Below, piece after piece: positions 7,333 to 42,701 of a stretch of DNA of 64,000 nt. Where the stretch lies: contig GG704596.1 of NCBI GenBank assembly GCA_000161775.1, positions 1,821,593 to 1,885,592 of the forward strand, given 5' to 3'. The position numbers and the translations under genes were made by a program. Positions within the stretch are counted from its first letter, which is position 1. The number at the start of each line of letters is the position of its first letter. The stretch is from Ruegeria lacuscaerulensis ITI-1157. Lineage in GTDB: Bacteria; Pseudomonadota; Alphaproteobacteria; Rhodobacterales; Rhodobacteraceae. The notes beneath the pieces are model-generated. The model was not told the origin of the DNA. It did no database searches and saw only the letters and a program-made list of their open reading frames with translations.

Positions 7333-8868
7333 TCAGAGACTCTCCAGGAACCGGATCAACGCATCGCGGTCGGGTTTGGGCATGGAAACGACGGTGTCGC
7401 GCGCGGCCTGGGCCTCGCCCCCGTGCCACAGGACCGCTTCGAGAAGCGAGCGCGCCCGGCCGTCATGCAGGAACTGGGTGTGTCCCGAAACCCGCCGGGT
7501 CAGGCCGATTCCCCACAACGGCGCGGTGCGCCATTCGCGGCCCGTGGCGCGGGCCTCGGGGCGGTTGTCGGCCAGTCCCTCGCCCATGTCGTGCAGCAGA
7601 AGGTCCGTGTAGGGCCAGATCAGCTGGAAACTGTGCTCGGGCCGGTCGGGCAGGCGGTGGGTGACGAATGCGGGCGTGTGACAGGCCGCGCAGCCAATGG
7701 TGTGGAACACCTCTTTGCCGCGCAGAACCTGCGGGTCGTCCACATCGCGCCGGGCTGGAACGCCCAGGTTGCGGCTGTAGAAGGTCACCAGGTCCATGCC
7801 TTGCTGGTCGATCTCGAAGCCGCGTTCGTCGCCGTCACCATGCGGGGCGGCCCAGCAATCGGCCTGCGCCTGGGTGCAATCGCCAAATGGCGCAGGGTAG
7901 AGCGGGTTGGAAATGCCGATATCGCCGGCGAAGGCCGCGGCCGATTGCTCCATGATCGTCGGCATGCCCGCCTTGTGCCCGAACCGGCCCAGCATGGGTT
8001 CGCCGAATTCCGTCGACCACACGATGTTGGGCCGCCCCGAGATCCCGTCTCCGTCCGCGTCGTCGGGGTCGGCCTTGGCCAGGATGTCTTCGGCCGGGAT
8101 CGCCTCGAGCAGGCCCAGCCCGATCATCTGCGGCGCCACGCGCGGGCTGAGCATCGCGTCGGGGTGCAACGGCCCATAGCCCAGATCGGCCGCCCTGTAG
8201 GTGGGCTTGCGCAGCGATACGGTTTCGCCATCAGACAACTCCACCAGGATTTCCTCGTAGGTGATGTCCAGCCGGTATTCGGCCTTGTGGCCGGGCAGGG
8301 CGAAATCCTGCATCTGTCCGCCATAGGTGGGTTCGGGCAGGGTGGCGAGATAGCCTTTGATCTCGGCGGGGGCGTCGTCGGGCGAACCGGGGATCGAAAC
8401 GCGCAGGAACATCGAAATGGCGTTGTCCTCGGGTCCGGCGGGTGGATGACCGCGCCCGTCCTTGATGTGGCAGCGCTGGCATGACCGGGCGTTGAACAGC
8501 GGCCCCAGCCCGTCCGAGGCCAGGGTCGAGGACGGAGACGACACCCAGACCTTCTTGAACAGCCCGTTGCCGACCTTGAAGTCCAGCTCCTGCTCAAAGC
8601 TCAGGTTGGCCGAGGGTTGCGAGAACGCATCCGCATCGGTGCGGGCGCGCACCGTCGCGGCGCCTGCGGGCAGGTCCTCAAAGCGCTGAGGCTGGGTGAA
8701 ATCCGACGGCGCCGCGGTGACGGCTGCGATGCGTGCGCGTTCAGCGTCGGTTCGGGGAAGGGGGCTCAGGTGGTTGTCTCTCAGATCCTGAGACAGGGAA
8801 GGGGTGGCCGCAAGAACGGCCACCGCGAGAAAGCCGAACCTATTCGGCTTCGTCCATTTTCGTTGCAT
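7333..8868 (-). CDS. Di-heme oxidoreductase family protein (DUF1111, c-type cytochrome)
   Basis: A 511-residue exported protein with two c-heme sites, CQRCH near residue 130 and CAACH near 393, and a signal peptide at about residues 10-27. The family is related to MauG-type di-heme peroxidases and is recurrently linked to imelysins. The frame is open to 8913, but the ATG at 8868 gives a proper signal peptide. This start lies inside the end of the bacterioferritin gene (29-base overlap), so the two genes are coupled. Substrate is unknown; a role in periplasmic iron redox is inferred from context. Confidence 0.88.
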
Positions 8869-9325
8869 TGAGTTGCGCATAATTCGCTTCGCCAAGCCTC
8901 TCATATAGGTCAAGCTGGGTTTCGAGGAAATCGATATGCCCTTCCTCGTCCGCCATGAGTTGTTCGAACAGCGCCATCGACACGAAGTCGCCGGCCTGTT
9001 GGCAGTATTCGCGCGCTTCCTTGTAAAGGGCCCGGGCGTCGATCTCGGCCGCCAGGTCGCATTCCAGCGTTTCCTTGGGCGTCTGGCCGATACGCAGCGG
9101 GTCGAGCTTCTGCAGGTTGGGATGGCCGCCCAAAAAGATGATCCGCTCGATCAGCTTGTCCGCGTGCTGCATCTCTTCGATGCTTTCCTCGCGGCTTTTC
9201 TTGGCCATGTGGCCCAGGCCCCAGTCCTCCTGCAGGCGGTAATGCAGCCAGTACTGGCTGACCGCCGTCAGCTCATGCCGCAGGGACTTGTTGAGGTATT
9301 CGATGACCTTTGGATCGCCCTTCAT
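8840..9325 (-). CDS. bfr: Bacterioferritin
   Basis: Heme-containing iron-storage cage protein of 161 residues, the usual length. The ferroxidase ligands are visible: Glu in [12 protein letters not shown], ExxH in [15 protein letters not shown], Glu in [13 protein letters not shown], and ExxH in [13 protein letters not shown]. The heme-ligand Met is expected in the [14 protein letters not shown] helix region but I cannot place it surely. AGGAG lies 8 bases before the ATG at 9325. The start overlaps the bfd gene by 53 bases and the stop overlaps the di-heme oxidoreductase gene by 29 bases. Confidence 0.96.
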
Positions 9326-9566
9326 TCGCACTCTCCTGTGTTGACCCCGCACGAAGTGCGCGGAGTTGCATGGGTACCCCAATGGTATCAGTCGCCCGCA
9401 TGGTGTCGAGGAACAACGGCATGCAGCCGCCGCAATCTGCCGATTTTCCGAGGGCATGATAGATCTTGCCGGGGGTGATGATCGCCTGCGGGTCCGCAGC
9501 GCGCATCCAGTCGATCGCGGCGCGGATGTCATGGTCGGTGATGTTGGTGCAATGGCAAACGATCAT
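9273..9566 (-). CDS. bfd: Bacterioferritin-associated ferredoxin
   Basis: Small [2Fe-2S] protein that reduces bacterioferritin and releases stored iron. The four cysteines are in VCHCTN near residue 5 and DCGGCMP near residue 46. It has 97 residues where the family usually has about 64. The extra C-terminal tail is read through the bfr ribosome-binding site and start, so the tail may exist only because of the 53-base overlap. The stretch before the ATG (9567-9610) is AT-rich and probably carries its promoter. Confidence 0.92.
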
Positions 9567-9649
9567 CTGTGGCCCTGCCGAGTTTATTCCTTAGTTTAAT
9601 AGTCGGGTAATTTCGGGGCGTCCAGTGTCATCCTGTCGCAGGGTGTCGG

Positions 9650-9672
9650 GACGCGGGCCGAAAGCCCGCGTC
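9650..9672. terminator. Perfect 9-bp hairpin after the imelysin gene
   Basis: GACGCGGGC and GCCCGCGTC pair around a CGAAA loop, 17 bases past the imelysin stop at 9689. No T-run follows on either strand, so it may act as a Rho-assisted or pausing hairpin rather than a classical intrinsic terminator. It separates this imelysin gene from bfd. Confidence 0.55.
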
Positions 9673-9688
9673 TCTGCAAAGTCGAGGC

Positions 9689-10960
9689 TCACTGGAAGAC
9701 CGCATCCGGGTTGTCGAGGCTGTCGGACCCTTCGAACGCGACATGATCCAGGTCGAGCGCAGTCACGATCCGTTCGATCGTCTTGGTCTGGTCGATCAGG
9801 GCGTTGACGCCCCCCATGATCAGCGCCTCGCCGCCGGCATTGCCGCGTTCCAGCATCTGGTCATAGGCCAGCCCGGCTTCGGCCGTGGTCTTGATCCGGC
9901 CCAGAGCCTGCATCGTGTCGGCCAGCTTGGTCTTCATCTCGTCGTCCAGTTCAGGGGCCGACGCCATAACCAGATCTGACAAGGACGGGCCGGACACCAG
10001 CGTGCCGTCGATGCGGACATAGCTGCCCAGATACACATTCTGGATGCCCAGCCCGTCATAGTAGTGGCTGTTGTGGGTGTTGTCCGAGAAACAGTCGTGC
10101 TCCTCTTCCGGATCGTTCAGCATCAGGCCCAGGCGCATCCGCTCACCGGCCTGCTCGCCATAGGACAGTGACCCCATCCCGGTCAGCATCGCAGTCAGAC
10201 CGGCGCTTTCATTTTCGAACAGGGCTGCGCGTGCGGCGCCGCCGTCCTGCCATTGGGTCGCCATCCATTCCAGGTCACTGACCAGCAGATCGGTTGCGGC
10301 CTGAAGGTATTGCGCGCGCCGGTCGCAGTTGCCGCCGGTGCAGGCGTCGCCCTGCGCGTAATCCGTCCAGGGCCGGTCACCCGAGCCGGGGCCGTGGCCG
10401 TTCATGTCCTGCCCCCAAAGCAGAAACTCGATTGCATGATAGCCGGTGGCCACGTTGGCCTCGACGCCATCCGCCTCATGCAGGGTTTCGGCCAGCAGGG
10501 CCGGAGTGATGTCGGTCGCGTCGATGGTTTCGCCGGACAGTTGGAAGGTCGGGTTGGCAATCACGTTCAGGGCCGCAAGCGCGTTTTCGTCGGTGACCCC
10601 GCCATAGGCCGCATCGACATAGTCGATCAGGCCCTCGTCCAGTGGCCAGGCGTTCACCTTGCCTTCCCAGTCATCGACGATCGGGTTGCCGAAACGATAG
10701 ACCTCGGTCTGTTGATAGGGCACCCGAGCCGCGATCCACGCCGCGCGCGCGGCGTGCAGCGCCTCGGCCGATGGGGTTTCAATCAGCATGTCGATCGCTG
10801 CGCGCAGACGTTTTGCAGCGGCCAGGCTGTCTTCGTATGCCGCCTGCGCAATGTCGGCGTAAGTGTTCAGAACTTGGGCTTTCGCGGGTGGGTCACCGGC
10901 AGATGCGGTCGTGGCAATCAAAAGGGTCAAAGCGCTGGTCGCGCAAAAGAGGCGGGTCAT
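9689..10960 (-). CDS. Imelysin family periplasmic protein (iron-regulated, IrpA-like)
   Basis: A 423-residue protein with a Sec signal peptide (MTRLFCATSALTLLIATTASA). It shows the imelysin features ARAAWIAARVPYQQTEVYRFGNP near the N-terminus and the metal-type motif GYHAIEFLLWGQD in the middle. The open frame extends to 11020, but the Met at 10960 starts the signal peptide. A TGA-N9-TCA iron box at 11051-11065 lies upstream. IrpA-like imelysins are periplasmic or outer-membrane-associated iron-uptake proteins. It is transcribed ahead of bfd-bfr but separated from them by a 120-base gap with a hairpin. Confidence 0.9.
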   Translation of the reverse strand: MTRLFCATSALTLLIATTASAGDPPAKAQVLNTYADIAQAAYEDSLAAAKRLRAAIDMLIETPSAEALHAARAAWIAARVPYQQTEVYRFGNPIVDDWEGKVNAWPLDEGLIDYVDAAYGGVTDENALAALNVIANPTFQLSGETIDATDITPALLAETLHEADGVEANVATGYHAIEFLLWGQDMNGHGPGSGDRPWTDYAQGDACTGGNCDRRAQYLQAATDLLVSDLEWMATQWQDGGAARAALFENESAGLTAMLTGMGSLSYGEQAGERMRLGLMLNDPEEEHDCFSDNTHNSHYYDGLGIQNVYLGSYVRIDGTLVSGPSLSDLVMASAPELDDEMKTKLADTMQALGRIKTTAEAGLAYDQMLERGNAGGEALIMGGVNALIDQTKTIERIVTALDLDHVAFEGSDSLDNPDAVFQ

Positions 10961-11038
10961 GGGGCGATCTATCCTGTCTGAGCAATGTTCGAGTGGCGCA
11001 GATTGGCCACTTGAAGGCATAACTGATAAAAAAAGTCG

Positions 11039-11065
11039 GAATAGTCAACCTGAATTTTATTGTCA
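11039..11065 (-). promoter_or_regulatory. Iron-responsive box and promoter of the imelysin gene
   Basis: The plus strand reads CCTGAATTTTATTGTCAGG, a palindrome with TGA at 11051-11053, nine bases, and TCA at 11063-11065. TGA-N9-TCA is the iron box described for Rhodobacterales and RirA-type regulation. On the minus strand it sits immediately before TTGACT, a good -35, with a weak AGTTAT 18 bases on. An iron-dependent repressor bound here would block the promoter. Confidence 0.7.
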
Positions 11066-11265
11066 GGTTTTGTTGTCTGTCTTTCATTGCAGCTGCGGTC
11101 TGGGAAATCATCCAGACATGCGGCTTGGCAAGATCCTCTTTGGTTTCCGAGGTTTCCTGGTGGTCAAAGTCCCGTTTGCAGCGATGTCGGTTGCATCACG
11201 TCGCGACCAGCCGGTCCGGCCCGATCGGCGACCCGGTCGAAATGCAGCGACGGATTTGGCTGCTG

Positions 11266-12234
11266 TCATCGCTTCCGGGCGTGGAATATGAAGCCCAGGA
11301 AATTCAGCAGCAGTTGCGCGGCCAAAATCTGAGTGCTTTCCGTGGGGTCATAGGCGGGGGCGACCTCGACAAGGTCAATGCCGACGACACTGCCTTGGCC
11401 GGCCAAGCCCTGAAGCAGTTCCAGCACATCATAATACAGGAACCCGCCGTGGCTGGGGGTACCGGTTCCGGGCGCGATCGAGGGGCAGAAGGCGTCGATG
11501 TCTATCGTCACATAATACCGTGCCCCGGGAGGGATCCGCTCCAGTACCGCCGGGATGCCCAGCTTGCGCACCTGTCGGACCGACAGGATGTCGGAGCCAC
11601 GGGCCCGGGCGTCGTCGTACCCCGCCTTCGCGGTGGATGAGACATTGCGAATGCCCAGCTGCGACAAGCCCGAGACATAGGGTTTTTCAATCGCGCGCCG
11701 CATCGGGTTGCCGTGGCCCGCGGTGACGCCATGACGCGTGTCCACGAAGTCCAGATGCGCATCGATCTGGATGACGTGGATAGGGCCGTTGCGGGCGCAA
11801 TCCTCGTCAAAGGCGTTGATGCAAGGGATGTTGATCGAGTGATCTCCGCCGATGACCAATGGCAAGGCCCTCGCATCGAGGATCTTGCGAACGCCGTATT
11901 CGATGTTGGCGTGGCTGGCCTCGGTCCTGGTGTGGATGATGTCGGCATCCCCAAGGTCGACGATACGAACGTCGCTGCCCAGATAGGTGGCGTCGTCTTC
12001 GTGGTCATAGACGCCGGCATGGCCGAAACTGAACAGGGTCGAGGCCTCGCGCACCGCGCGCGGTCCGAACCGGGCGCCCGACCGGTATTGGCATCCGAAG
12101 TCGAACGGTGCCCCCAGAACGGCCACATCAGCATCGATCTTGTCCCAGTCCTGCACATAGGGCTACTTGCCGAATGTGGGAATGCCCACGAAAGGCAGGT
12201 TCAGGCGGCCGGTTTCGTACCCGTGGTCAGACAT
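11266..12234 (-). pseudogene. Second ureohydrolase (agmatinase/guanidinobutyrase-like), interrupted by an in-frame TAG
   Basis: From the ATG at 12234 the frame reads MSDHGYETGRLNLPFVG, then IPTFGK, then TAG at 12163-12165, then PYVQDWDKIDADVAVLG and on to 11266. The family has an aromatic residue at that position (FGKYPYV type), so one base change (TAC/TAT to TAG) explains the stop. After the stop, 296 codons are open from a GTG at 12156. They keep the metal motifs GGDHSIN, QIDAHLDFVD and TIDIDAFCPS with PGTGTPSHGG. No good ribosome-binding site precedes that GTG. It could be a recent pseudogene, a truncated but active enzyme, or a sequencing error. The operon speB at 1-751 is a different, intact ureohydrolase. 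Confidence 0.8.
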
Positions 12235-12540
12235 TGGCGCTCGCTTTCATGGTCGCGTGACAGACCCGATGATGCTAGCCGCCCCGCGAGGACAATCAAG
12301 CGGCCAGAGCGCCGGCAGGGCGCCATGAGATTAGCCTCAACAATATCAGTGATTTTATCGGCATTATGCATTAATCTTGCTAAATAACATCTAATTTGAC
12401 TGAGCTTTTGGGGGTTTCCCGGTTCTCCGGGTCGCGGATTGGGCGAGCCCGTCCGGCCCCGATCGGCGTCTTCGTTTTTTGAGAAGGTGAGGCTGCCGAC
12501 GCGAGATTTTGCGCCATTTTTTTGGGGGGGGAAACCGGCC
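12235..12540. other. Divergent intergenic region before the fusion gene
   Basis: It lies between the broken ureohydrolase (minus) and the fusion gene (plus). An AT-rich stretch at about 12330-12400 must hold the promoters, though I cannot name a clear -35/-10 pair. A CCCGG-ttct-CCGGG hairpin is at 12418-12431. A homopolymer block of seven T then eight G (12517-12531) ends 9 bases before the GTG start and overlaps the ribosome-binding region. No gene is visible. Confidence 0.55.
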
Positions 12541-15500
12541 GTGACAACACAAGTGATTTCCAATTCGAAACCGATTGAGGCAACCGAGGACGAATGGCGC
12601 AAGATCTTTGCGGTTCTTCCCAGCGAGCTGGCCCGAAAACACCCTGAAGAGGTGCGGCCGCGTTTCGACCTGTTCGAGGTCTTTGACGACACGCCCTTGC
12701 CGCCGCGGGGCATGTATGTGGTTCTGGATGGCATCGTGAAGCTGCGACAGGACGGGGTGGATCTGGCCACGGCCGCTGCCGGCGACTATTTCTACGAGGA
12801 ACATCTCGAGATCACCGATATTCCGGTCAGCCTGCAGGCGGTTGCGCTTCCGGGCACGCGTCTGGCCTGTGTTTCCCGCGATCAATGGCACGAGATTCCG
12901 GCCGAGATCCGCGCGCAGTGCTTTGCGATCCTGTTCGGCGATCTGGTCAGCGTGCACCTTCAGAATTTCCAGCAACCGATCAACTGCTGCAGCGTAACGG
13001 CGGCGGCGCTGAGCATGTCGGCGCTGGGCTTCAGTTGCGAGGTGAATGACATCTTCCGGGTCTGCGAACTGCCCACCAGTTTCGTGGTCAATGACGGCAT
13101 CTCGCTGGGCGAATTGTTCGACGTGGCCTGCGCCTACATTCATTCACAGGGTCTGCGCGATCAGGTTCAGGTTCAGGCCTATTTCATGGATGAGGCCACG
13201 ACATCGGTGCCGCTGCTGCTGGAGGCGATTGACGAATCCAACCGACTGGGCGGAGACAACGACATTCTGGTTGCCAATTTCCAGGTGGGCGTTGCGCATG
13301 GCAAACCCACCATGCCGGGCGGACATTTCGCGGTGATCGCCAAATGCAACCCCAGCACCGGGCTGGTGCACATGATGGATGTGCACCCCGAGAAATACGG
13401 CAAGCTCTGGGTCACCACGATCGACCGGCTTTACGCGGCCATGTCCGATCGTGACGGAACCTCGATGCGCGCGCGCGGTCTGTTGCGGTTTTCGGCGCGA
13501 GAGGCGGTCAAGACCACGCTTCAGACCTTCCGTCAGGACTGCAACTATGTTGACAGCACGCAATATCTGGCAAAAGACCCCAAAAGGCGCCGCAACCTGT
13601 TCCGGCGGGCCAGCCCGAACATGAACAGTCTGGGCGTCCTGGCTGAAAGCCTCAAGATACTGGGCGATGTGCAGGTGACAGAAGACAAGCTGCTGATCGC
13701 GACGCAGACATCCTATACCGAAGCGCTGAGCCGGGTTTCGACCGCCAAAAAAATGAGCGAGATGGCCCAGCGATACCTTGCCGGGACGTCCGAGGTGCAT
13801 ATCGGAAGCACCTTCCGCAGCTATGCCGAACGGCCCAAAAAGGACACCAGGTCGCCGCAGGAGTGGTTCCATGATCAATTGCGCAGCCTGAATGAACACG
13901 AAGGGCGGCACCTGATGATCAACATCGACTTCAACCGCGTGCTGGGGTTCGAGGTGATCCGCCCGCCGGAAAACGTGTTCCGCGAGACCGCCTTGCTGGA
14001 AGAATTCTGGTGCCTGTGCATCGCCTATGACGAAAAGACCGATCTTGTCACCGTCGTCGACATGAGCCCCGCGACCTCGCAGGTCTGGCAGGCGCCGCGC
14101 GGCCATATCTTCCGTGGGCTGCGTGATCTCAAGGCCCCCGCCATGCTGGTGATCGAAGAGGGAGAGGCCCCGGCAGACCCCAGCAACGTGTCGTGGATCG
14201 TGAACGAGCATCCGCTGGTGTTGTTCTACGAGGACGAAGATCCGTGGTCGCACATGTTGAAGAACATCCTCGCCAATATCGGGGCGACAGGCCTGAAGCT
14301 GGTCGATGTGGCCGGACACGGGGCCAATGCCATGAAAATGCGTCGGCAACTGGTGGCCGAAAGCGGCAAGGAAACGGTGCCCTACCTGTTCTTCAAGGGC
14401 AAATGCCTGGGCAAGCGCAGCGATATCGTTGACATGATCCTGGACGGCAGCCTGCAGGAAGACATGAAGAAGGCCGGTTTGCCGGTGTTGCAGCGCCACG
14501 AGTCGCCCAGTCTGGACAAGAACATCTTCGGCTATCCCAAGGGCGGGTTGACCGCGCCGCCGAACGGGCGTCGGAACGTTCTGCTGTGCGCCTGCGGCTC
14601 GTCCGCCGCCGACAAGGTGCCGGAACTGGTCGCCCGGATCACCGAGGCTGGCCACAACGTGAAACTGATCCCCTCGGTATCGGCCGAGAAGTTCTTCCGC
14701 GACATCGGAACCGACAAGGACAGCGAGGCCCGGAAAGCAAAGCGGAACGGCAAGAAGGCCAAGACCCGCAAGGTCGAGGACTACATCACCCACAACGATT
14801 ACTACCGCGACGATGACGAATGGAACTTTCGCTATACCGAGTTCGCCATGCCGCTGCGCGCGTCGCACCTGGCGCTGTGCGACTGGGCCGACTGCGTGAT
14901 CGTCGCGCCGGTCACCTGCAACACGATGGGCAAGATCGCCAATGGGATTGCCGACAACCTGCTGACCTCGGTCTTTGTGGCCTGGCAGTACCGCAACAAG
15001 CCGGCGATCCTCTGTCCGGCGTGCAACACCAACATGTGGAACAACGTCACCACCCAGAACAACGTCGAAAAGCTGCGCGATCTGGGGATTGATCTTGTCG
15101 GTCCCCGCAAGGGGCGCCTGTCGAACGGGATGATGGGCATCGGCATGATGGCCACGCCCGACCAGATCATGGAGGTGTTAGAAGAAGCCTTCGAAGAGCT
15201 GGAAAACCACGAACACAACATCTGCAAATGGGCGCAGGAGGCTGCGGCCTCGGACGATTTCAAGCGGTGGGAACCCGTGCTCAAGGCCATCGACGACGGG
15301 ATTGCCGGCATCGACATCGTGGACGACAACAATGGCGACACGCTGCTGCACTATGCTGCCGGCGGCGAGGGCGAGCTGACCGAGAACGGGCAGGATCTGG
15401 GTAAGCCGGACATCGAGGCCGCCAAGGCCCTGATCGCCCGCGGCATCAACGTGAACGCAACCAATGATCACGGCTTTACCAGCCTGCATGTGGCGGCGAT

Positions 15501-16200
15501 GAACAACTCGGCCGAGATGGTCGAAACGCTGCTGGCGGCGGATAGCATCGATGCAAGCCCGCTGATCCATTTCCTGCAGGATCCGGTGCGGTCACGCGGC
15601 ATCAAGGTTTCGGACGAGATCCGCGCGATGCTGGAAAACTGGGCCAACACCCATGGCCTGTCCGAGCCGGAAGAGATGGAAGACGAAGACGACCTGATCG
15701 AAGACCGCGAGAAGACCTATCTGTATTTCACCTACGGCTCGCTCAAGAAAGGCTTTCCGAACCACGACGCCCATGCGGATGTGCTGGATGATCTGGTCGG
15801 GCCGGCGACCACGCGGCAGCCGATGCCCCTGATCGTTCCCAAAGAGCCGTTCTGCGACAACCCGAATTGCGCGTATCTGCACCGCATGGCCACGCTGGTC
15901 GACCGCAAGGGCACCGGGCGTCCGATCAAGGGCGAGGTCTATCGGGTCACCTCGGGCGGGTTGAAGGAATTGGACAAGCTCGAGGGCTTTCACGGGCCGG
16001 GCGCGGCCGACAACGTCTATGTCCGCAAGCGGATCAACGTTCTGATGGATGGCGTGAAAAAGCCCGCCTATGTCTATGTCATCGCCAATCCGGAAAAATA
16101 CCTGGCCGACCTGGAGCGAGGCGCGTCCGAGTTGGTGGACGAGTACACGATCGACATGGCGACGGGCACGCTGAAGCCGGGGTACGAGGCGGTGACCTAG
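12541..16200 (+). CDS. Multidomain fusion: cNMP-binding-like / phytochelatin synthase / PCS-like repeat / glutaredoxin-like / HFCD flavoprotein / ankyrin / gamma-glutamylamine cyclotransferase
   Basis: A 1219-residue protein, no signal peptide. Residues about 35-135 resemble a cyclic-nucleotide-binding beta-roll (MYVVLDGIVKL). Residues 140-320 are a phytochelatin synthase (C83) domain with Cys150, His262 (GGHFAVI) and Asp280; the His-Asp distance of 18 equals that of plant PCS. Residues about 450-535 repeat the C-terminal half of that fold, with Trp490 where His should be. Residues 551-647 are glutaredoxin-like (TVPYLFF, SDIVDMILDGSL) but lack the active Cys. Residues 678-890 are an HFCD flavoprotein: His776, PVTCNT 790-795, PACNTNMW 826-833. 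Ankyrin repeats span 930-1005. Residues 1058-1200 are GGACT-like: YGSL at 1065-1068 and Glu1148. GTG 12541 was chosen because the upstream frame is not homologous; a TTG at 12439 would add 34 residues. The combined function in glutathione breakdown is inferred. Confidence 0.87.
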   Translation: MTTQVISNSKPIEATEDEWRKIFAVLPSELARKHPEEVRPRFDLFEVFDDTPLPPRGMYVVLDGIVKLRQDGVDLATAAAGDYFYEEHLEITDIPVSLQAVALPGTRLACVSRDQWHEIPAEIRAQCFAILFGDLVSVHLQNFQQPINCCSVTAAALSMSALGFSCEVNDIFRVCELPTSFVVNDGISLGELFDVACAYIHSQGLRDQVQVQAYFMDEATTSVPLLLEAIDESNRLGGDNDILVANFQVGVAHGKPTMPGGHFAVIAKCNPSTGLVHMMDVHPEKYGKLWVTTIDRLYAAMSDRDGTSMRARGLLRFSAREAVKTTLQTFRQDCNYVDSTQYLAKDPKRRRNLFRRASPNMNSLGVLAESLKILGDVQVTEDKLLIATQTSYTEALSRVSTAKKMSEMAQRYLAGTSEVHIGSTFRSYAERPKKDTRSPQEWFHDQLRSLNEHEGRHLMINIDFNRVLGFEVIRPPENVFRETALLEEFWCLCIAYDEKTDLVTVVDMSPATSQVWQAPRGHIFRGLRDLKAPAMLVIEEGEAPADPSNVSWIVNEHPLVLFYEDEDPWSHMLKNILANIGATGLKLVDVAGHGANAMKMRRQLVAESGKETVPYLFFKGKCLGKRSDIVDMILDGSLQEDMKKAGLPVLQRHESPSLDKNIFGYPKGGLTAPPNGRRNVLLCACGSSAADKVPELVARITEAGHNVKLIPSVSAEKFFRDIGTDKDSEARKAKRNGKKAKTRKVEDYITHNDYYRDDDEWNFRYTEFAMPLRASHLALCDWADCVIVAPVTCNTMGKIANGIADNLLTSVFVAWQYRNKPAILCPACNTNMWNNVTTQNNVEKLRDLGIDLVGPRKGRLSNGMMGIGMMATPDQIMEVLEEAFEELENHEHNICKWAQEAAASDDFKRWEPVLKAIDDGIAGIDIVDDNNGDTLLHYAAGGEGELTENGQDLGKPDIEAAKALIARGINVNATNDHGFTSLHVAAMNNSAEMVETLLAADSIDASPLIHFLQDPVRSRGIKVSDEIRAMLENWANTHGLSEPEEMEDEDDLIEDREKTYLYFTYGSLKKGFPNHDAHADVLDDLVGPATTRQPMPLIVPKEPFCDNPNCAYLHRMATLVDRKGTGRPIKGEVYRVTSGGLKELDKLEGFHGPGAADNVYVRKRINVLMDGVKKPAYVYVIANPEKYLADLERGASELVDEYTIDMATGTLKPGYEAVT

Positions 16201-17393
16201 CCGCGCTGGTGCGTCGCCGCCGGGGGCGCGCCGGTGTCCGGCCGCGCCTTCAGGCCGAGGTTCCAGCCGGTGATCGCGATCATGCAGATCAGGACGAACG
16301 GCCAGAAGGCAGCCTTGGGGATCAGATTGTCCCTGTAGTGGATGACCCACAGCGATGGCGCGGAGTCCGAGGCGAACAGATAGGTGTTCACCGAGACCGC
16401 AAGCAGCATGAAATACATCAGGAAAAAGAACGATTCCATGTAGATCACCGGCGACCCGGCGAAGCCTTCGCGCAGCTGCACATGGGCCAGCAGGATCACG
16501 AAGAACAGGACCGAACAGGTTCCGATCACGCCCGAGGTGCTGAAATCGTGCCGCTCGACCAGGCTGGGCTTGCGCGTCACGGTCATCACCGCGCCGAACA
16601 GCAGCATCGTCACCACGATCAGCGGAATCATGTGCACCACGAACGCGTTGGCGAAATTGCGTTTGATGACGAAGTTGTAGTGCAGTTCCGGCAGATTGGT
16701 CTGAAATTCGTTCTCGCCGATGCCCAGCGTCGTATCCAGATCGGACAGTTTGTAGTCGAAATAGGTGTTCTCGCGCTCCCACGTCCCCATGACGATGCGG
16801 TTGTCGATGCCAAAGATGTCCTGCGCTCCCGTGGCGGGGTAGGCGGTGAAATCCGGCACCAAGGCCACGTTGACGTCGAACCGTCCGGGCCAGAACCGGA
16901 CCCAGACGGTTTTGTGATCGAACGGATAGCTGGTGTAGTCGAAGGACTGGCGCAGGGTCTGTTCGAAATACCACCCGATCAGCGTGCTGCCGTCCCGTTT
17001 CATCCGGTAGGCTTCCTGGATCACGCCGTTTGCGACATCGACCGCTTCGGGCAGGAGAAAGCCCACCTCTCCCCGGTCCGGCCGGATCGCATCGTGTGCG
17101 CCATCCAGATAGTGCTGCCAGACATAGCCCGAAACCCGCACGTCGCTGGCGCCTTCGAAGCTGAAGCTTTTGATGAAGATGCCGGTCTTGACCCGCAGGT
17201 CCGGCGCGTTGTCCAGCCCGGTCAGAAAGGTATCGACGGCGGCCATATCCGGCAATTGCGTCGGATCGCTGTCAAACCGGTTCAACGCGACCCAGAGCTT
17301 GAACAGAACCAGCATCAAGACGGCGGACAGGATGCCCGACAACAGCCAAACCTTCTTTTCGATCGTCATCCGGGTGCTTGCGTTCTGAGGCAT
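16197..17393 (-). CDS. Pentameric ligand-gated ion channel-like membrane protein (divergent)
   Basis: A 398-residue protein. It has an N-terminal membrane anchor (15-37), a periplasmic beta-rich domain (about 40-245) with YPFD at 156-159, and four C-terminal membrane segments (250-271, 287-306, 317-341, 361-381). The YPFD motif, the M1 start with PLIVVTMLLF, and an M2-M3 region of AHVQL followed by FFFLMYF match the layout of prokaryotic Cys-loop-type channels (GLIC/ELIC). The Cys pair is absent, as in bacterial members. The extra N-terminal membrane segment is unusual. The ATG follows the cyclase stop by 3 bases, so the two are co-transcribed. Its TAG shares CTAG with the stop of the convergent fusion gene. 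Channel function is inferred; it could be a sensor using the same fold. Confidence 0.6.
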   Translation of the reverse strand: MPQNASTRMTIEKKVWLLSGILSAVLMLVLFKLWVALNRFDSDPTQLPDMAAVDTFLTGLDNAPDLRVKTGIFIKSFSFEGASDVRVSGYVWQHYLDGAHDAIRPDRGEVGFLLPEAVDVANGVIQEAYRMKRDGSTLIGWYFEQTLRQSFDYTSYPFDHKTVWVRFWPGRFDVNVALVPDFTAYPATGAQDIFGIDNRIVMGTWERENTYFDYKLSDLDTTLGIGENEFQTNLPELHYNFVIKRNFANAFVVHMIPLIVVTMLLFGAVMTVTRKPSLVERHDFSTSGVIGTCSVLFFVILLAHVQLREGFAGSPVIYMESFFFLMYFMLLAVSVNTYLFASDSAPSLWVIHYRDNLIPKAAFWPFVLICMIAITGWNLGLKARPDTGAPPAATHQRG

Positions 17394-17396
17394 CTG

Positions 17397-20300
17397 TCAC
17401 TCCGCGGGTTCCGGCGCCAGGAAATCCAGGCTGCCGGTCAACGACCGCGATATGCCCATCTGCGCGAACCCGGTTCGCAGCGCGTCGAATTCCGCATGGG
17501 TGCGGGGGTCCACCCCGGCGCGTCCGGCCTCGGCCAGAATACGGGTCTGGCGGATGGACAGATCGACCATCGGCAAGGGTTCCGAGGCGGTGAAGGCCGC
17601 AAGATCGTCGGCAAAGGTGATGGCGCGGCCCCAGTCATGCCGCGCCAGCATCACCGCGCTGGCGTCGGTATAGAAATGCAGGTGACTGTGGCCCACGCAA
17701 CCCTCGGCGATGATGGCGGCGCCCTGCGCCAGCAGATCGTCTTGCCGGTTGGGATCCACCAGCGCCAGCGCCAGTGCCGAAAGGGCCTTGGGGCCGACGA
17801 AGTTGCGTCCGTGTTCCAACGCGATGTCAACGGCCTGTTGCCCCGTTTCGCGCGCCGCGCTGACCTCTCCGGCATAGGCCTGGGTCCGGGCAAGATGTTC
17901 CAGCGCCTGCGCCTCGAGCCGTTTGGCCCCGACGCGTTGGGCGATCGCGGCGGACTGGGCGAATGCGTCGCGCGCGCCGTCGAGGTCGCCCTGAAATGTA
18001 CAGGCCACACCCAGACAGGTCTGGGCCACGCATTCGGGGACGAAGGCGAAATATTTCTGGCTGATCTCGATGGCTTCCTGCGCGTCGGCGCGGCCCTGGG
18101 CGACGTCTCCGGTGTAGCTGCGGGCAACGCTTAGATTGTGCAGGTTGGCGGCCAGATCGCGCACCAGACCGTGTTCCCGTGCCCGTTCGACCGCCTGTGA
18201 GTAGAAACTGGTAGCCGTCCGCATGGTGGCGTTCATGAAATTGGCGTCGCCAAAGCCGCTGAGCGCGCCGACCTCCAGCCGCGCCGACCCCAGCTTGCGG
18301 GCCAGCGTCAGGGCAATTTCGTTGCTGTCCATGGCGTCCTGAGCCCGGCCCAGCGGGAAATAGATGTTGCCCCGGACATAGTTGATCTGCGCCAGGTCCC
18401 GCTCTGATCCGGCGCGCTTGGCGGCGGCTTCGGCGATATCCAGGCTGTTCAGCGCGTCCTGATAGCGGCTGGCCTGACGGGCGGCCTGGGCCAGTCCGGT
18501 ATGGATCCGGCAGATCTGTTCGTCGCTTTCAGCCAGCGCCACGGCTTCGCCGAATTCCCGCAGAGCGTCGTCGGACAGCCCCTGCAGCCGGTGGATTTCG
18601 GCGCGCGCGCAGAACAGGTCCAGCCGGACCCCCGAGGGTGCCGGCAATTCCAGCGCGCGCTCGATCAGTGGGCTTGCTTCGTCGAACCGGAACGACTGGA
18701 TCAGGTTTTCCGCCGCCTCCAGATAGGCCCGGGCCGCATTCGGGGCGCCGCCCCGGTCGAGATGCCTTGCCCGCAAGGTGGCGTCTTTGCCTTCGTACCA
18801 CCTGGCGGCCTGTTCATGCAGCCGGGCGCGTTCGGATTTGACCAGCGTCGCGTAGGAGCCATCGCGGATCAGGGCGTGGGCGAACATCAGTTCGGACCCC
18901 GCCTCGCGGATCAGTGCGGTGCGGGTCAGGGTCGCGGTATCCAGATGTCCCTCGCCCAGCAGAAAGCTCAGGACCTCGGGCGAGAACCGTTGCCCCAGAA
19001 CCGAGGCCGCCTGGATCGCGATGCGGCTGCCCCGGTCCAGCCCGTCCAGCCTTGATTGTACGATGCCCTGGATGCTGCCCGGAACGTTTTCGCGCGTCAG
19101 GGCGTCGATGTTGCGCAGCAGCTGTTCCAGAAACAGCGGGTTTCCGCCCGCCCGCTGGACGCAGGTTTCCAGAAGCTCGGGGTCGATGGCGGTAAATTCC
19201 TCGACCAGCAGCCGGGCCTGATCATCTCCCATGGGGGACAATTCCAGCTTCGAGATCAGCGCGCCGTCCGAGGCCGTTTCCCAATCGCGGTCGATCGGAT
19301 CGCCTTCCACCCGGCTGGTCATCTGCAGGACGCAGGGCAGATTCCGCGTGGCTGCCGCGATATAGCAGCACTGCGTCAGTATCTCGGGTGAGGCCCAGTG
19401 GATGTCCTCGACCTGAATCAGCAAGGGGGTCTCGCGGCTGCGCGCCTGCAGAAGGTCCTCGATCACCTGACGCCGTCCGCGCATCCGCGATGCGTTGTCC
19501 ATCGCGGCATACACCTCGGCCAGACCGGTTTCCTGCTCAAGTTCCAGCAGGGCGCTGAGATGTGCCGACCCGGCCGGGTTGACCCAACCCCTGTCGATGG
19601 CCTGCCGAACGGCTGCGGCGCTGGCCTCGGGGTCGTCGGCGGGGTCCAGGCCAACAAGGCTGCGGGTGACGGACTGGATTGCGGAATGGCCTTCGCGGGT
19701 GCCGAAATCCATGATCGCACCGGAATGCACGGTGTATGACTGGCTTTCGGCCAGTTCCGCCACCTGTTCCGAGAAATGCGTCTTGCCGATTCCGGGGTCA
19801 CCTAGAATGATGTGTACCTCGCCCTTGCCATGTTGCCGGCAGCGGTCATAGGCGGCAGAAAACAAGGAAAGTTCCCGGTCACGTCCGATGAATTTGTGCC
19901 GGCGGGCACGGATGTTCCGGGCCAGGCGATCCAGACGCCACACCTCGACATCTTTATTCAGACCCTTGATGGCCTTCGTCCCGAACGCCTCGCCCACGAA
20001 AAGCGGGCCCAGCGCCCTTTGGATGTCGTGCGAGACCAGTGTCTCGCCCGGGGCCGAGATGTCGGTCAGGCGGGAGGCCAGGTTCACGCCATCGCCCGTC
20101 ACCGTGTATTCGGTATGGGCCTCGCTGCCGGTCGAGCTGGCGATGACCTGCCCCGAGGCGATGCCGATATGGCACGACAGCGGCGGGTCCAGCGTGGGCA
20201 GGGCGGCGTGGATCTCCAACGCTGCACGCGCGGCCCGTTCGGTGTCGTTGGTATGCGAGATCGGCGCTCCGAACACGGCCATCACGGCGTCGCCGATATG

Positions 20301-20684
20301 CTTGTCGATCCGGCCCCCGAACTTTTCGACCGCACGATCGACCTTGCCGAAAAATGCGTTCAGCAGGGCGTGGATGTCCTCGGCGTCGCGCTCGCTGGAC
20401 AGTTTCGTGAACCCGGTCAGGTCGGCGAACAGTACCGTGACCTGTCGCTTGGCCGGTTCCGGTTCGGTCCGGGGCTGAAAGGGGGTGACGGTTTCGGGTT
20501 CGTCCAGTTCGGCGATGGCGCGCAGCAGCCGCCGGCGGTCGCCCACGGCGGTGACGCCGATCTCGCGCAGGTCCTCTCCCGTCAGTTCGGGAAGGATCGC
20601 CAGATCGATCTTGTTGTCCGTGAACGCCTGGATGTAGTCGGACAACCCAAGCGCGCTCAGCCATTCCTTCAGGTCGCCAGACAT
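17397..20684 (-). CDS. SAM domain, class III adenylate cyclase, AAA-type ATPase and TPR protein
   Basis: A 1095-residue cytoplasmic signalling protein. Residues 3-60 form a SAM domain (LKEWLSALGLSDYIQAF). Residues 80-250 are a class III cyclase catalytic domain with metal Asp88 (FADLTGFTK) and Asp132 (GDAVMAVFG). Lys128 and the YTVTGDGVN segment favour ATP over GTP. Residues about 265-560 are a STAND/AAA-type ATPase with Walker A GDPGIGKT at 295-302. The rest is helical TPR-like repeats. ATG 20684 has GAGGG 5 bases upstream; the frame is open to 20702. The channel-like gene follows at once. The partner of the TPR part is unknown. Confidence 0.88.
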   Translation of the reverse strand: MSGDLKEWLSALGLSDYIQAFTDNKIDLAILPELTGEDLREIGVTAVGDRRRLLRAIAELDEPETVTPFQPRTEPEPAKRQVTVLFADLTGFTKLSSERDAEDIHALLNAFFGKVDRAVEKFGGRIDKHIGDAVMAVFGAPISHTNDTERAARAALEIHAALPTLDPPLSCHIGIASGQVIASSTGSEAHTEYTVTGDGVNLASRLTDISAPGETLVSHDIQRALGPLFVGEAFGTKAIKGLNKDVEVWRLDRLARNIRARRHKFIGRDRELSLFSAAYDRCRQHGKGEVHIILGDPGIGKTHFSEQVAELAESQSYTVHSGAIMDFGTREGHSAIQSVTRSLVGLDPADDPEASAAAVRQAIDRGWVNPAGSAHLSALLELEQETGLAEVYAAMDNASRMRGRRQVIEDLLQARSRETPLLIQVEDIHWASPEILTQCCYIAAATRNLPCVLQMTSRVEGDPIDRDWETASDGALISKLELSPMGDDQARLLVEEFTAIDPELLETCVQRAGGNPLFLEQLLRNIDALTRENVPGSIQGIVQSRLDGLDRGSRIAIQAASVLGQRFSPEVLSFLLGEGHLDTATLTRTALIREAGSELMFAHALIRDGSYATLVKSERARLHEQAARWYEGKDATLRARHLDRGGAPNAARAYLEAAENLIQSFRFDEASPLIERALELPAPSGVRLDLFCARAEIHRLQGLSDDALREFGEAVALAESDEQICRIHTGLAQAARQASRYQDALNSLDIAEAAAKRAGSERDLAQINYVRGNIYFPLGRAQDAMDSNEIALTLARKLGSARLEVGALSGFGDANFMNATMRTATSFYSQAVERAREHGLVRDLAANLHNLSVARSYTGDVAQGRADAQEAIEISQKYFAFVPECVAQTCLGVACTFQGDLDGARDAFAQSAAIAQRVGAKRLEAQALEHLARTQAYAGEVSAARETGQQAVDIALEHGRNFVGPKALSALALALVDPNRQDDLLAQGAAIIAEGCVGHSHLHFYTDASAVMLARHDWGRAITFADDLAAFTASEPLPMVDLSIRQTRILAEAGRAGVDPRTHAEFDALRTGFAQMGISRSLTGSLDFLAPEPAE

Positions 20685-20752
20685 CGGGGCCCTCAGAAGC
20701 ATCCACCCAAGCGCAGCCTAGACCAGACACTGTGGTTGTGTCTGCATTTTTT

Positions 20753-42170: not shown

Positions 42171-42701
42171 TTATGCGGTCAGAGTGCGCACCCGTTGCGA
42201 CAACCACTCAAGATCCGGGTCGTGAAGGCCGATCTCGGCCAGGTGTTCCGCGGTATTGTACAGGTATTCGGTGTTTGGGCCGCGGCCGCCTACGGCCCGC
42301 GCGATGATCTGCGCCTGATCTTCCAGCGGCAAGCCGCCACAATACTGAACGTGGTCAGGATCGATCACGTAAGTGACCGCATTGACGACCGTTCCATTGT
42401 CCAGATGAACGTCCGGCATCTTTTCGACATAGGCTGACGAGATCAGTTCACGCTCGCGCAATTCGTCCAAGGTGCGCGCTTCGTGGCCCGGTTCGACCGC
42501 CAGCGCCAGCCCCTTGCAGTGGGCCTCGGGGTGTTCGTCCAGCGCCAGGACCAGGCCCGGGGTCTCTTCGGTGCCGCGATGGTGGATCGACCGCATGCAG
42601 AAGGACCGGGCATATCCGTACAGCGTTGCATGTTCACGCCTTGCCACGGGAAAGCCCGGGTTCCACAAAAGTGAACCATATCCGAAAACCCACATCGTCA
42701 T
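42171..42701 (-). CDS. ChaC-like glutathione-specific gamma-glutamylcyclotransferase
   Basis: A 176-residue protein with the FGYGSLLWNPGF start of ChaC proteins, and a Glu in the ELRERELIS helix where the catalytic acid is expected. It converts glutathione to 5-oxoproline and Cys-Gly. AAGGA lies nine bases before the ATG at 42701. It diverges from the DUF2125 gene. It is the second cyclotransferase in the window, beside the domain at the end of the 12541-16200 fusion. Confidence 0.9.
   Translation of the reverse strand: MTMWVFGYGSLLWNPGFPVARREHATLYGYARSFCMRSIHHRGTEETPGLVLALDEHPEAHCKGLALAVEPGHEARTLDELRERELISSAYVEKMPDVHLDNGTVVNAVTYVIDPDHVQYCGGLPLEDQAQIIARAVGGRGPNTEYLYNTAEHLAEIGLHDPDLEWLSQRVRTLTA

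Follow-up and report, generated by a model that had tools for sequence, protein, structure and literature searches.

In the window analysed here, a 64,000-nucleotide stretch of Ruegeria lacuscaerulensis ITI-1157 (contig GG704596.1, positions 1,821,593 to 1,885,592, in a genome of 3.52 Mb and two contigs), one gene encodes a 1219-residue protein that, as judged by sequence and fold, joins in a single chain three enzyme folds, those of phytochelatin synthase (PCS), the HFCD flavoproteins and gamma-glutamylamine cyclotransferase (GGACT), with two enzyme-like parts that lack catalytic residues. We propose, tentatively and with a confidence that falls just short of an even call, that this protein deglycylates glutathione, oxidatively decarboxylates the resulting gamma-glutamylcysteine and releases 5-oxoproline and an amino-enethiol. 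The architecture and its conservation are read from the sequences themselves; we infer every reaction step, and the succession of steps, from the chemistry of the families.

Conservation was assessed in a bacterial-type set of 72 proteins (71 relatives plus the window protein), in which the first PCS domain could be read in 71 members and the GGACT domain in 69; 66 of the relatives and the window protein exceed 1100 residues and align along their length. Nine further relatives (five permuted, four partial) supplied HFCD domains and seven supplied GGACT domains. The gene and its catalytic parts are as follows.

12541..16200, + strand: main gene, 1219 residues, GTG start, TAG stop; full-length relatives known
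12916..13545, + strand: PCS1, phytochelatin-synthase-like catalytic domain (residues 126-335); PF05023 above cut-off, match to Alr0975
12988..12990, + strand: Cys150, predicted PCS nucleophile; 70/71, one gap
13324-13326, + strand: His262 of the predicted PCS triad; 71/71
13378-13380, + strand: Asp280 of the predicted PCS triad; 71/71
14566..15216, + strand: HFCD flavoprotein domain, PPC-decarboxylase-like (residues 676-892), by fold and profile
14866..14868, + strand: His776, counterpart of AtHAL3a His90 by alignment; 72/72 and 9/9 further relatives
14917..14919, + strand: Cys793, family-specific (AtHAL3a Ala107); 72/72 and 9/9; Ala in 111/114 other HFCD proteins
15022..15027, + strand: Cys828-Asn829 (AtHAL3a Met141-Asn142); both 72/72 and 9/9
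15124..15126, + strand: Asn862, replacing by alignment the reductive Cys175 of PPC decarboxylase; Asn in 72/72
15712..16197, + strand: GGACT domain, like mouse and human GGACT (residues 1058-1219), by Pfam, profile and fold
15733..15744, + strand: YGSL motif; 69/69 domain-bearing bacterial-type members
15853..15882, + strand: Cys1105-x4-Cys1110-x3-His1114, within an insertion that mouse GGACT lacks; 69/69, and 7/7 of the further relatives
15982-15984, + strand: catalytic Glu1148; 69/69 domain-bearing bacterial-type members

The initial annotation had placed PCS, HFCD and GGACT domains in one 1219-residue chain, and each indeed scores above its Pfam cut-off; the residues and motifs that it named (C150, H262, D280, H776, PVTCNT, PACNTNMW, YGSL at 1065-1068 and E1148) all lie where it put them. 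Among the other Pfam models that it suggested for the window protein, the ankyrin one (PF12796) also exceeds its cut-off, and cNMP_binding and Glutaredoxin fall below theirs. The catalytic residues of the three enzyme domains are invariant wherever the domain could be read, both in the 67 proteins longer than 1100 residues and in the set of 72, where the sole exception is one row gapped at C150; because of this invariance, the co-occurrence of the domains is more than chance. The open frame continues upstream to a TTG at 12439, with GTG 12487 as an alternative start.

The Pfam Phytochelatin model (PF05023) matches residues 171-313 with 35.7 bits (cut-off 24.9), and a profile of PCS1 that includes permuted relatives finds Alr0975 with an E-value of 1.1e-11. 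The Pfam match spans profile positions 81-209 only, and the nucleophile lies outside every hidden Markov model (HMM) alignment; C150 is predicted to be that nucleophile from its conservation and its spacing from Gln144, a spacing that presumably fits the PCS pattern. The neighbouring C149 is Ser in four and Gly in one of the sequences of the family alignment. In plant PCS, the triad is Cys56, His162 and Asp180 (PMC7586750).

The HFCD domain (Pfam Flavoprotein, residues 679-879, 93.6 bits against a cut-off of 22.7) has phosphopantothenoylcysteine (PPC) decarboxylases as its nearest solved structures. H776, N829 and M832 are all present in 72/72 proteins, and of the PXMNXXMW motif the Asn and second Met are kept, with Cys828 at the place of the first Met. 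The NCBIfam equivalog models are missed (TIGR00521, 118.4 against 219.7 bits; TIGR02113, 94.1 against 261.4). For comparison we drew 114 other HFCD proteins from the best 120 of 1783 HFCD-domain matches. The position of the reductive Cys is occupied by Cys in 112/114 of these; in the nine further relatives of the window protein it is Asn in six and Ser in three. At the positions of Cys828 and Asn829, the comparison proteins have Met in 112/114 and Asn in 114/114. The reactions of EpiD and MrsD, members of the same superfamily, are oxidative, and the MrsD paper reportedly says so in its title. In PPC decarboxylase, oxidative decarboxylation requires a His and the reduction of the enethiol requires a Cys (PMC4626798, PMC9604783); the C175S mutant of this enzyme retains the enethiol (1mvn). 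Because Asn862 takes the place of the reductive Cys, an enethiol and not a cysteamine compound is predicted unless C793 or C828 substitutes, and oxidative decarboxylation to gamma-glutamyl-aminoethenethiol seems more likely than a cysteamine ending. The order of steps in the initial annotation is supported, and its ‘cysteamine-like thiol’ end product probably needs revision. A Lys/Arg-rich insert in the HFCD domain (14707-14796) occurs in the window protein and in locus L002, and has a shorter counterpart in L010; judged by length, 14 of the 16 rows in the alignment do not have it.

The GGACT domain (Pfam, residues 1062-1185, 54.7 bits against a cut-off of 22.8) has the GGCT fold, a YGSL-type loop and the catalytic Glu. 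Its profile finds mouse and human GGACT with E-values of 3.4e-10 to 1.4e-6 and GGCT with 0.057 at best; because the closest match is to a gamma-glutamylamine cyclotransferase, the chain of steps is chemically sound. The initial annotation's logic, from glutathione through deglycylation and decarboxylation to a gamma-glutamylamine, thus agrees with the domains, their catalytic residues and this likeness. The C-x4-C-x3-H motif is invariant in all 76 family GGACT domains read, including those without Glu1148, and could be a site for metal or for a thiol. The window contains another GGACT-family match at 42354-42689 on the - strand (28.4 bits; coordinates converted from the genome). A structural model of residues 660-1219 has a mean pLDDT of 70.9 and a pTM of 0.45, and because of these values we do not read a domain arrangement from it.

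In the pathway that we propose, PCS1 would form a gamma-Glu-Cys thioester on Cys150 with loss of glycine, followed by hydrolysis. The HFCD domain would bind flavin mononucleotide (FMN), with His776 driving thiol oxidation and loss of CO2; with Asn862 in place, the reaction would halt at gamma-glutamyl-aminoethenethiol, and electrons would exit via FMNH2, probably to oxygen. The GGACT domain, by means of YGSL and Glu1148, could then cyclise the glutamyl part of this gamma-glutamylamine to give 5-oxoproline and aminoethenethiol; hydrolysis of the latter would presumably yield mercaptoacetaldehyde and ammonia.

Four other regions complete the chain, in the bacterial order cNMP-PCS1-PCS2-Grx-HFCD-Ank-GGACT (Grx, glutaredoxin; Ank, ankyrin).

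12562..12915, + strand: cNMP-binding-like domain (residues 8-125); PF00027, 21.9 bits against a cut-off of 27.5
13546..14175, + strand: PCS2, a further phytochelatin-synthase fold that lacks the catalytic Cys/His (residues 336-545; fold at 354-541), by fold search
14170..14487, + strand: glutaredoxin-fold domain (residues 544-649); CPYC replaced by DPWS, Pro614 retained
15217..15690, + strand: ankyrin-repeat block (residues 893-1050); PF13637, PF00023, PF12796, PF13857 and PF13606 above cut-off, ankyrin folds

The PF00027 match covers residues 54-119, and the label appears on 6 of the 71 relatives; a family profile of the N-terminal domain matches the cNMP domains of cyclic-nucleotide kinases (best E-value 1.1e-6). 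Sequence comparison detects PCS2 weakly (hhalign probabilities of 7.2% and 1.4%), and a fold search settled it, at the level of a model, as a PCS fold whose alignment end points vary by one residue. The glutaredoxin region has a thioredoxin/glutaredoxin fold and subthreshold sequence matches (Pfam Glutaredoxin, residues 568-622, 19.6 bits against 22.9; an NCBIfam match at 2.5e-7, below that model's cut-off). No CxxC or CxxS redox cysteines are present in it, the motif being DPWS with D567 in 69/72 and S570 in 72/72. All five Pfam ankyrin matches fall within residues 922-1004. PCS2 probably pairs with PCS1, and the redox-dead glutaredoxin fold might serve to bind either glutathione or a product. 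The PCS2 fold, the missing reductive Cys of the HFCD domain and the partner genes described below go beyond the initial annotation.

The nearest named proteins are from Ruegeria (92% identity; loci 92-93%), and the genome collection holds at least 39 loci, a lower bound because seeding used exact patterns. Of these, 26 are titled Ruegeria, and the other 13 come from Seohaeicola, Roseibacterium, Roseovarius, Rhodobacteraceae, Rhodospirillaceae, SAR116, other alphaproteobacteria and two gammaproteobacterial bins (L023 and L039). Among viruses, 15 stretches matched the patterns and none codes for a relative; among plasmids, 57 records matched, none over more than 80% of the query, and only the HFCD region appears among the 30 matches listed. 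A search for relatives (78 matches) added seven proteins, four of them from EukProt, a collection of eukaryote sequences that includes transcripts. In three of these EukProt proteins (P0195, P0196 and P0197, the first and last being, by name, isoforms of one transcript cluster), custom HMMs give the order Grx-HFCD-Ank-GGACT-PCS1-PCS2, which is shared by the metagenome proteins P0194 and P0199 (Grx partial in the former, absent from the latter). Custom HMMs found no PCS in P0193 or P0198. Relative to the bacterial order, the permuted form is a circular permutation with the same cyclic order, and P0194 and P0199 retain C150, H262, D280, H776, N829, YGSL and E1148. That the break point differs between bacterial and EukProt proteins while the cyclic order stays the same speaks for cooperation among the modules. 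Bacterial contamination of the transcriptomes seems the less likely source of the EukProt sequences, given their distinct domain order and their divergence. An HFCD tree was built from 59 rows, of which 40 belong to the family (31 of the 72 bacterial-type members among them) and 19 to the 114 comparison proteins. In it the family forms one group with support of 100/98, P0193 falling with the metagenome forms; because the family stem is long, long-branch effects may bear on this grouping.

Two genes on the opposite strand adjoin the main gene.

16197..17393, - strand: c1, putative membrane protein judging by its hydrophobic stretches, no Pfam match; convergent with the main gene
17397..20702, - strand: c2, SAM domain, class III adenylate/guanylate cyclase, AAA and TPR, from a scan of neighbours

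The main gene and c1 end in a common CTAG palindrome (16197-16200) that provides both stop codons. Searches of Pfam and of solved structures gave no match for c1, whose late half may resemble pentameric ligand-gated channels. Among 61 genomes, 37 of them from the genus, 19 carry the main gene at full length, none with an inner stop. These 19 are also the genomes that have c1 and the ones that have c2 at an identity of at least 72% (within the genus, Fisher p 5.7e-11, uncorrected for descent). Weaker c2 relatives (38-41%) exist elsewhere, for example in genome G034, which has no main gene, and c2 is one of many SAM, cyclase, AAA and TPR matches in the genus. In three genomes without the main gene, only the arginase neighbour was found, plus a 30% c2 stretch in one. 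Both partners accompany at least 30 of the 39 loci (a lower bound, as c1 in L022 is probably masked by an opposite-strand frame), c2 alone accompanies two and neither accompanies seven. Locus L023 has all three genes in a different order and on different strands, and its c1 relative (723 residues, 10695-12863) carries a Cache/PDC-type sensor region, which makes the membrane partner a possible small-molecule sensor. Together, the cyclase, the membrane gene and the cNMP-like domain hint at regulation in which a signal and a cyclic nucleotide take part. The kept cyclic order of the permuted relatives and the presence of the three genes in the same 19 genomes support one functional unit. Elsewhere in the window, ferritin-like and imelysin genes, probably concerned with iron handling, lie next to each other (8840-11020, - strand).

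More broadly, these observations could describe a new glutathione-breaking pathway in one protein, ending in 5-oxoproline and aminoethenethiol, from which mercaptoacetaldehyde would follow. In such a pathway the dead PCS copy and the redox-dead glutaredoxin would keep hold of glutathione, a dedicated cyclase together with a membrane sensor would act as the switch, and marine bacteria and eukaryotes would have the protein in common as a whole-domain circular permutation. We regard this full picture as doubtful.

A number of observations weigh against the pathway and its wider setting. GGACT is absent from P0069, P0070 and P0071; P0069 may be cut, and the other two stop after the ankyrin block, so the domain is dispensable in some lineages. 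Three of the seven further GGACT-bearing relatives (P0195-P0197) have an altered YGSL and no catalytic Glu. P0196 keeps the PCS Cys and His with Asp280 changed to Glu; P0195 and P0197 have Cys150 changed to Ser, Asp280 to Glu and E1148 to Leu; and P0193 has YGTY for YGSL. These cases speak against the ‘complete assembly line’ of the initial annotation as a general rule. The cNMP domain lies below its Pfam cut-off, PCS2 is recognised weakly in the permuted proteins (15-43 bits), C793 or C828 might stand in for the reductive Cys, and hydrolysis and transpeptidation by PCS look alike in sequence. One inner stop is reported in 5 of the 19 c2 matches, and the seven loci without partners beside them are six of SAR116/Rhodospirillaceae type and one from Halieaceae, some at contig ends. 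The genome has no Hydantoinase_B match. It likewise has no match to cysteamine dioxygenase (PF07847), which is uninformative, as control genomes have none either.

Several other readings deserve comparison. The pathway could be the same and its net outcome non-oxidative, with Cys793 or Cys828 acting as Cys175 does, so that GGACT would release cysteamine from gamma-glutamylcysteamine. In its favour, both cysteines are invariant in the 81 sequences, each precedes a conserved Asn (N794 and N829), and of the 114 other HFCD proteins just two have Cys at the first position and two at the second; we nevertheless consider it unlikely, given that all 81 have Asn or Ser in place of the canonical Cys, that the enethiol persists in the C175S enzyme, and that EpiD and MrsD are oxidative. 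Mentions of gamma-glutamyl-cysteamine in the part of the literature available mostly concern cystinosis. The true substrates might instead be glutathione S-conjugates, metal-glutathione complexes or phytochelatin-like peptides, in detoxification or metal-peptide trimming. This we find more unlikely still: HFCD chemistry needs a free thiol, so that S-conjugates would stall after step one, and no metal-resistance family appears among the scanned neighbours of the main gene, though the ferritin-like and imelysin genes point to iron. Nonetheless, Cys1105-x4-Cys1110-x3-His1114 could bind metal, and PCS proteins process glutathione S-conjugates too (PMC3561135).

Equally hard to favour is a flavin-thiol sensor in which the HFCD domain alone works, or only binds, and the PCS, glutaredoxin and GGACT domains serve as ligand-binding parts in cyclic-nucleotide signalling. 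The HFCD active site is the only one intact in every member read, PCS2 and the glutaredoxin fold have already lost their catalytic residues, and the cyclase and membrane genes are present in 19/19 gene-bearing genomes of the genus, all of which such a sensor would accommodate. However, the PCS and GGACT residues are invariant in domain-bearing bacterial-type members down to ~48% full-length identity, which argues against mere binding, as binding would not require them. Finally, an ordinary flavoprotein of coenzyme A (CoA) biosynthesis, or an artefact of fused neighbouring genes, has the PPC-decarboxylase likeness on its side and is extremely improbable: 19 full-length genome matches lack inner stops, and the alignment of 66 other proteins of more than 1100 residues along their length refutes it. 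A plain CoaC was ruled out by a separate HFCD match of CoaBC size in the genome together with the missing reductive Cys. Within the best 120 of the 1783 HFCD matches, the candidates for a stand-alone version (top matches P0073-P0078) look like family pieces, being short proteins on contigs of 563-1824 bases (P0075 from a transcript; P0169 is another piece), and most remaining matches are CoaBC/PPCDC-like at 31-46% identity.

Each catalytic domain of the protein thus belongs to a known superfamily, and the assembly and predicted pathway match nothing that we found. No PCS-HFCD-GGACT protein is described in the literature searched, mostly without subscription papers, and nothing there speaks against the initial annotation's view that no known enzyme unites these activities. 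The TDA gene tdaF was considered as a point of comparison and dropped; a term search of PMC13163973 gave no mention of glutathione.

PCS1 resembles Alr0975 (NsPCS; PDB 2bu3/6th5) in its fold and Cys-His-Asp residues. That enzyme takes glycine off glutathione, converting it to gamma-Glu-Cys (PMC12065762), and its solved structures comprise one domain of 200-220 residues, whereas PCS1 stands in tandem with a catalytically bare copy in a 1219-residue chain. The HFCD domain finds its best fold and sequence match in the PPC decarboxylases AtHAL3a and human PPCDC, whose His90, Asn142 and Met145 have counterparts here; unlike them, it has Asn for Cys175 and Cys for Met141 and Ala107, and is fused to other enzyme domains. 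EpiD, MrsD and TvaF, which decarboxylate a C-terminal cysteine to an enethiol in ribosomal peptides, are less similar. The GGACT domain shares YG(S/T)L, the catalytic Glu and K-x-G-x-PNH with the human and mouse enzymes, its best structural match among cyclotransferases, and differs from them in being fused and in carrying the C-x4-C-x3-H insert. Most known glutathione breakdown begins at the gamma-glutamyl end. ChaC and GGCT, whose substrates are glutathione or gamma-glutamyl amino acids (PMC7022552), have the 5-oxoproline end in common with the proposed route, in which, unlike theirs, the amine would be made first. A chain that removes glycine first and the cysteine carboxyl second would yield different sulfur products. 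If correct, it would mean that the main thiol of the cell undergoes a cysteine decarboxylation of the lantibiotic type. It would also be a novel route in sulfur metabolism, with an unusual reactive sulfur compound as its end product and with three separable active sites in one chain.

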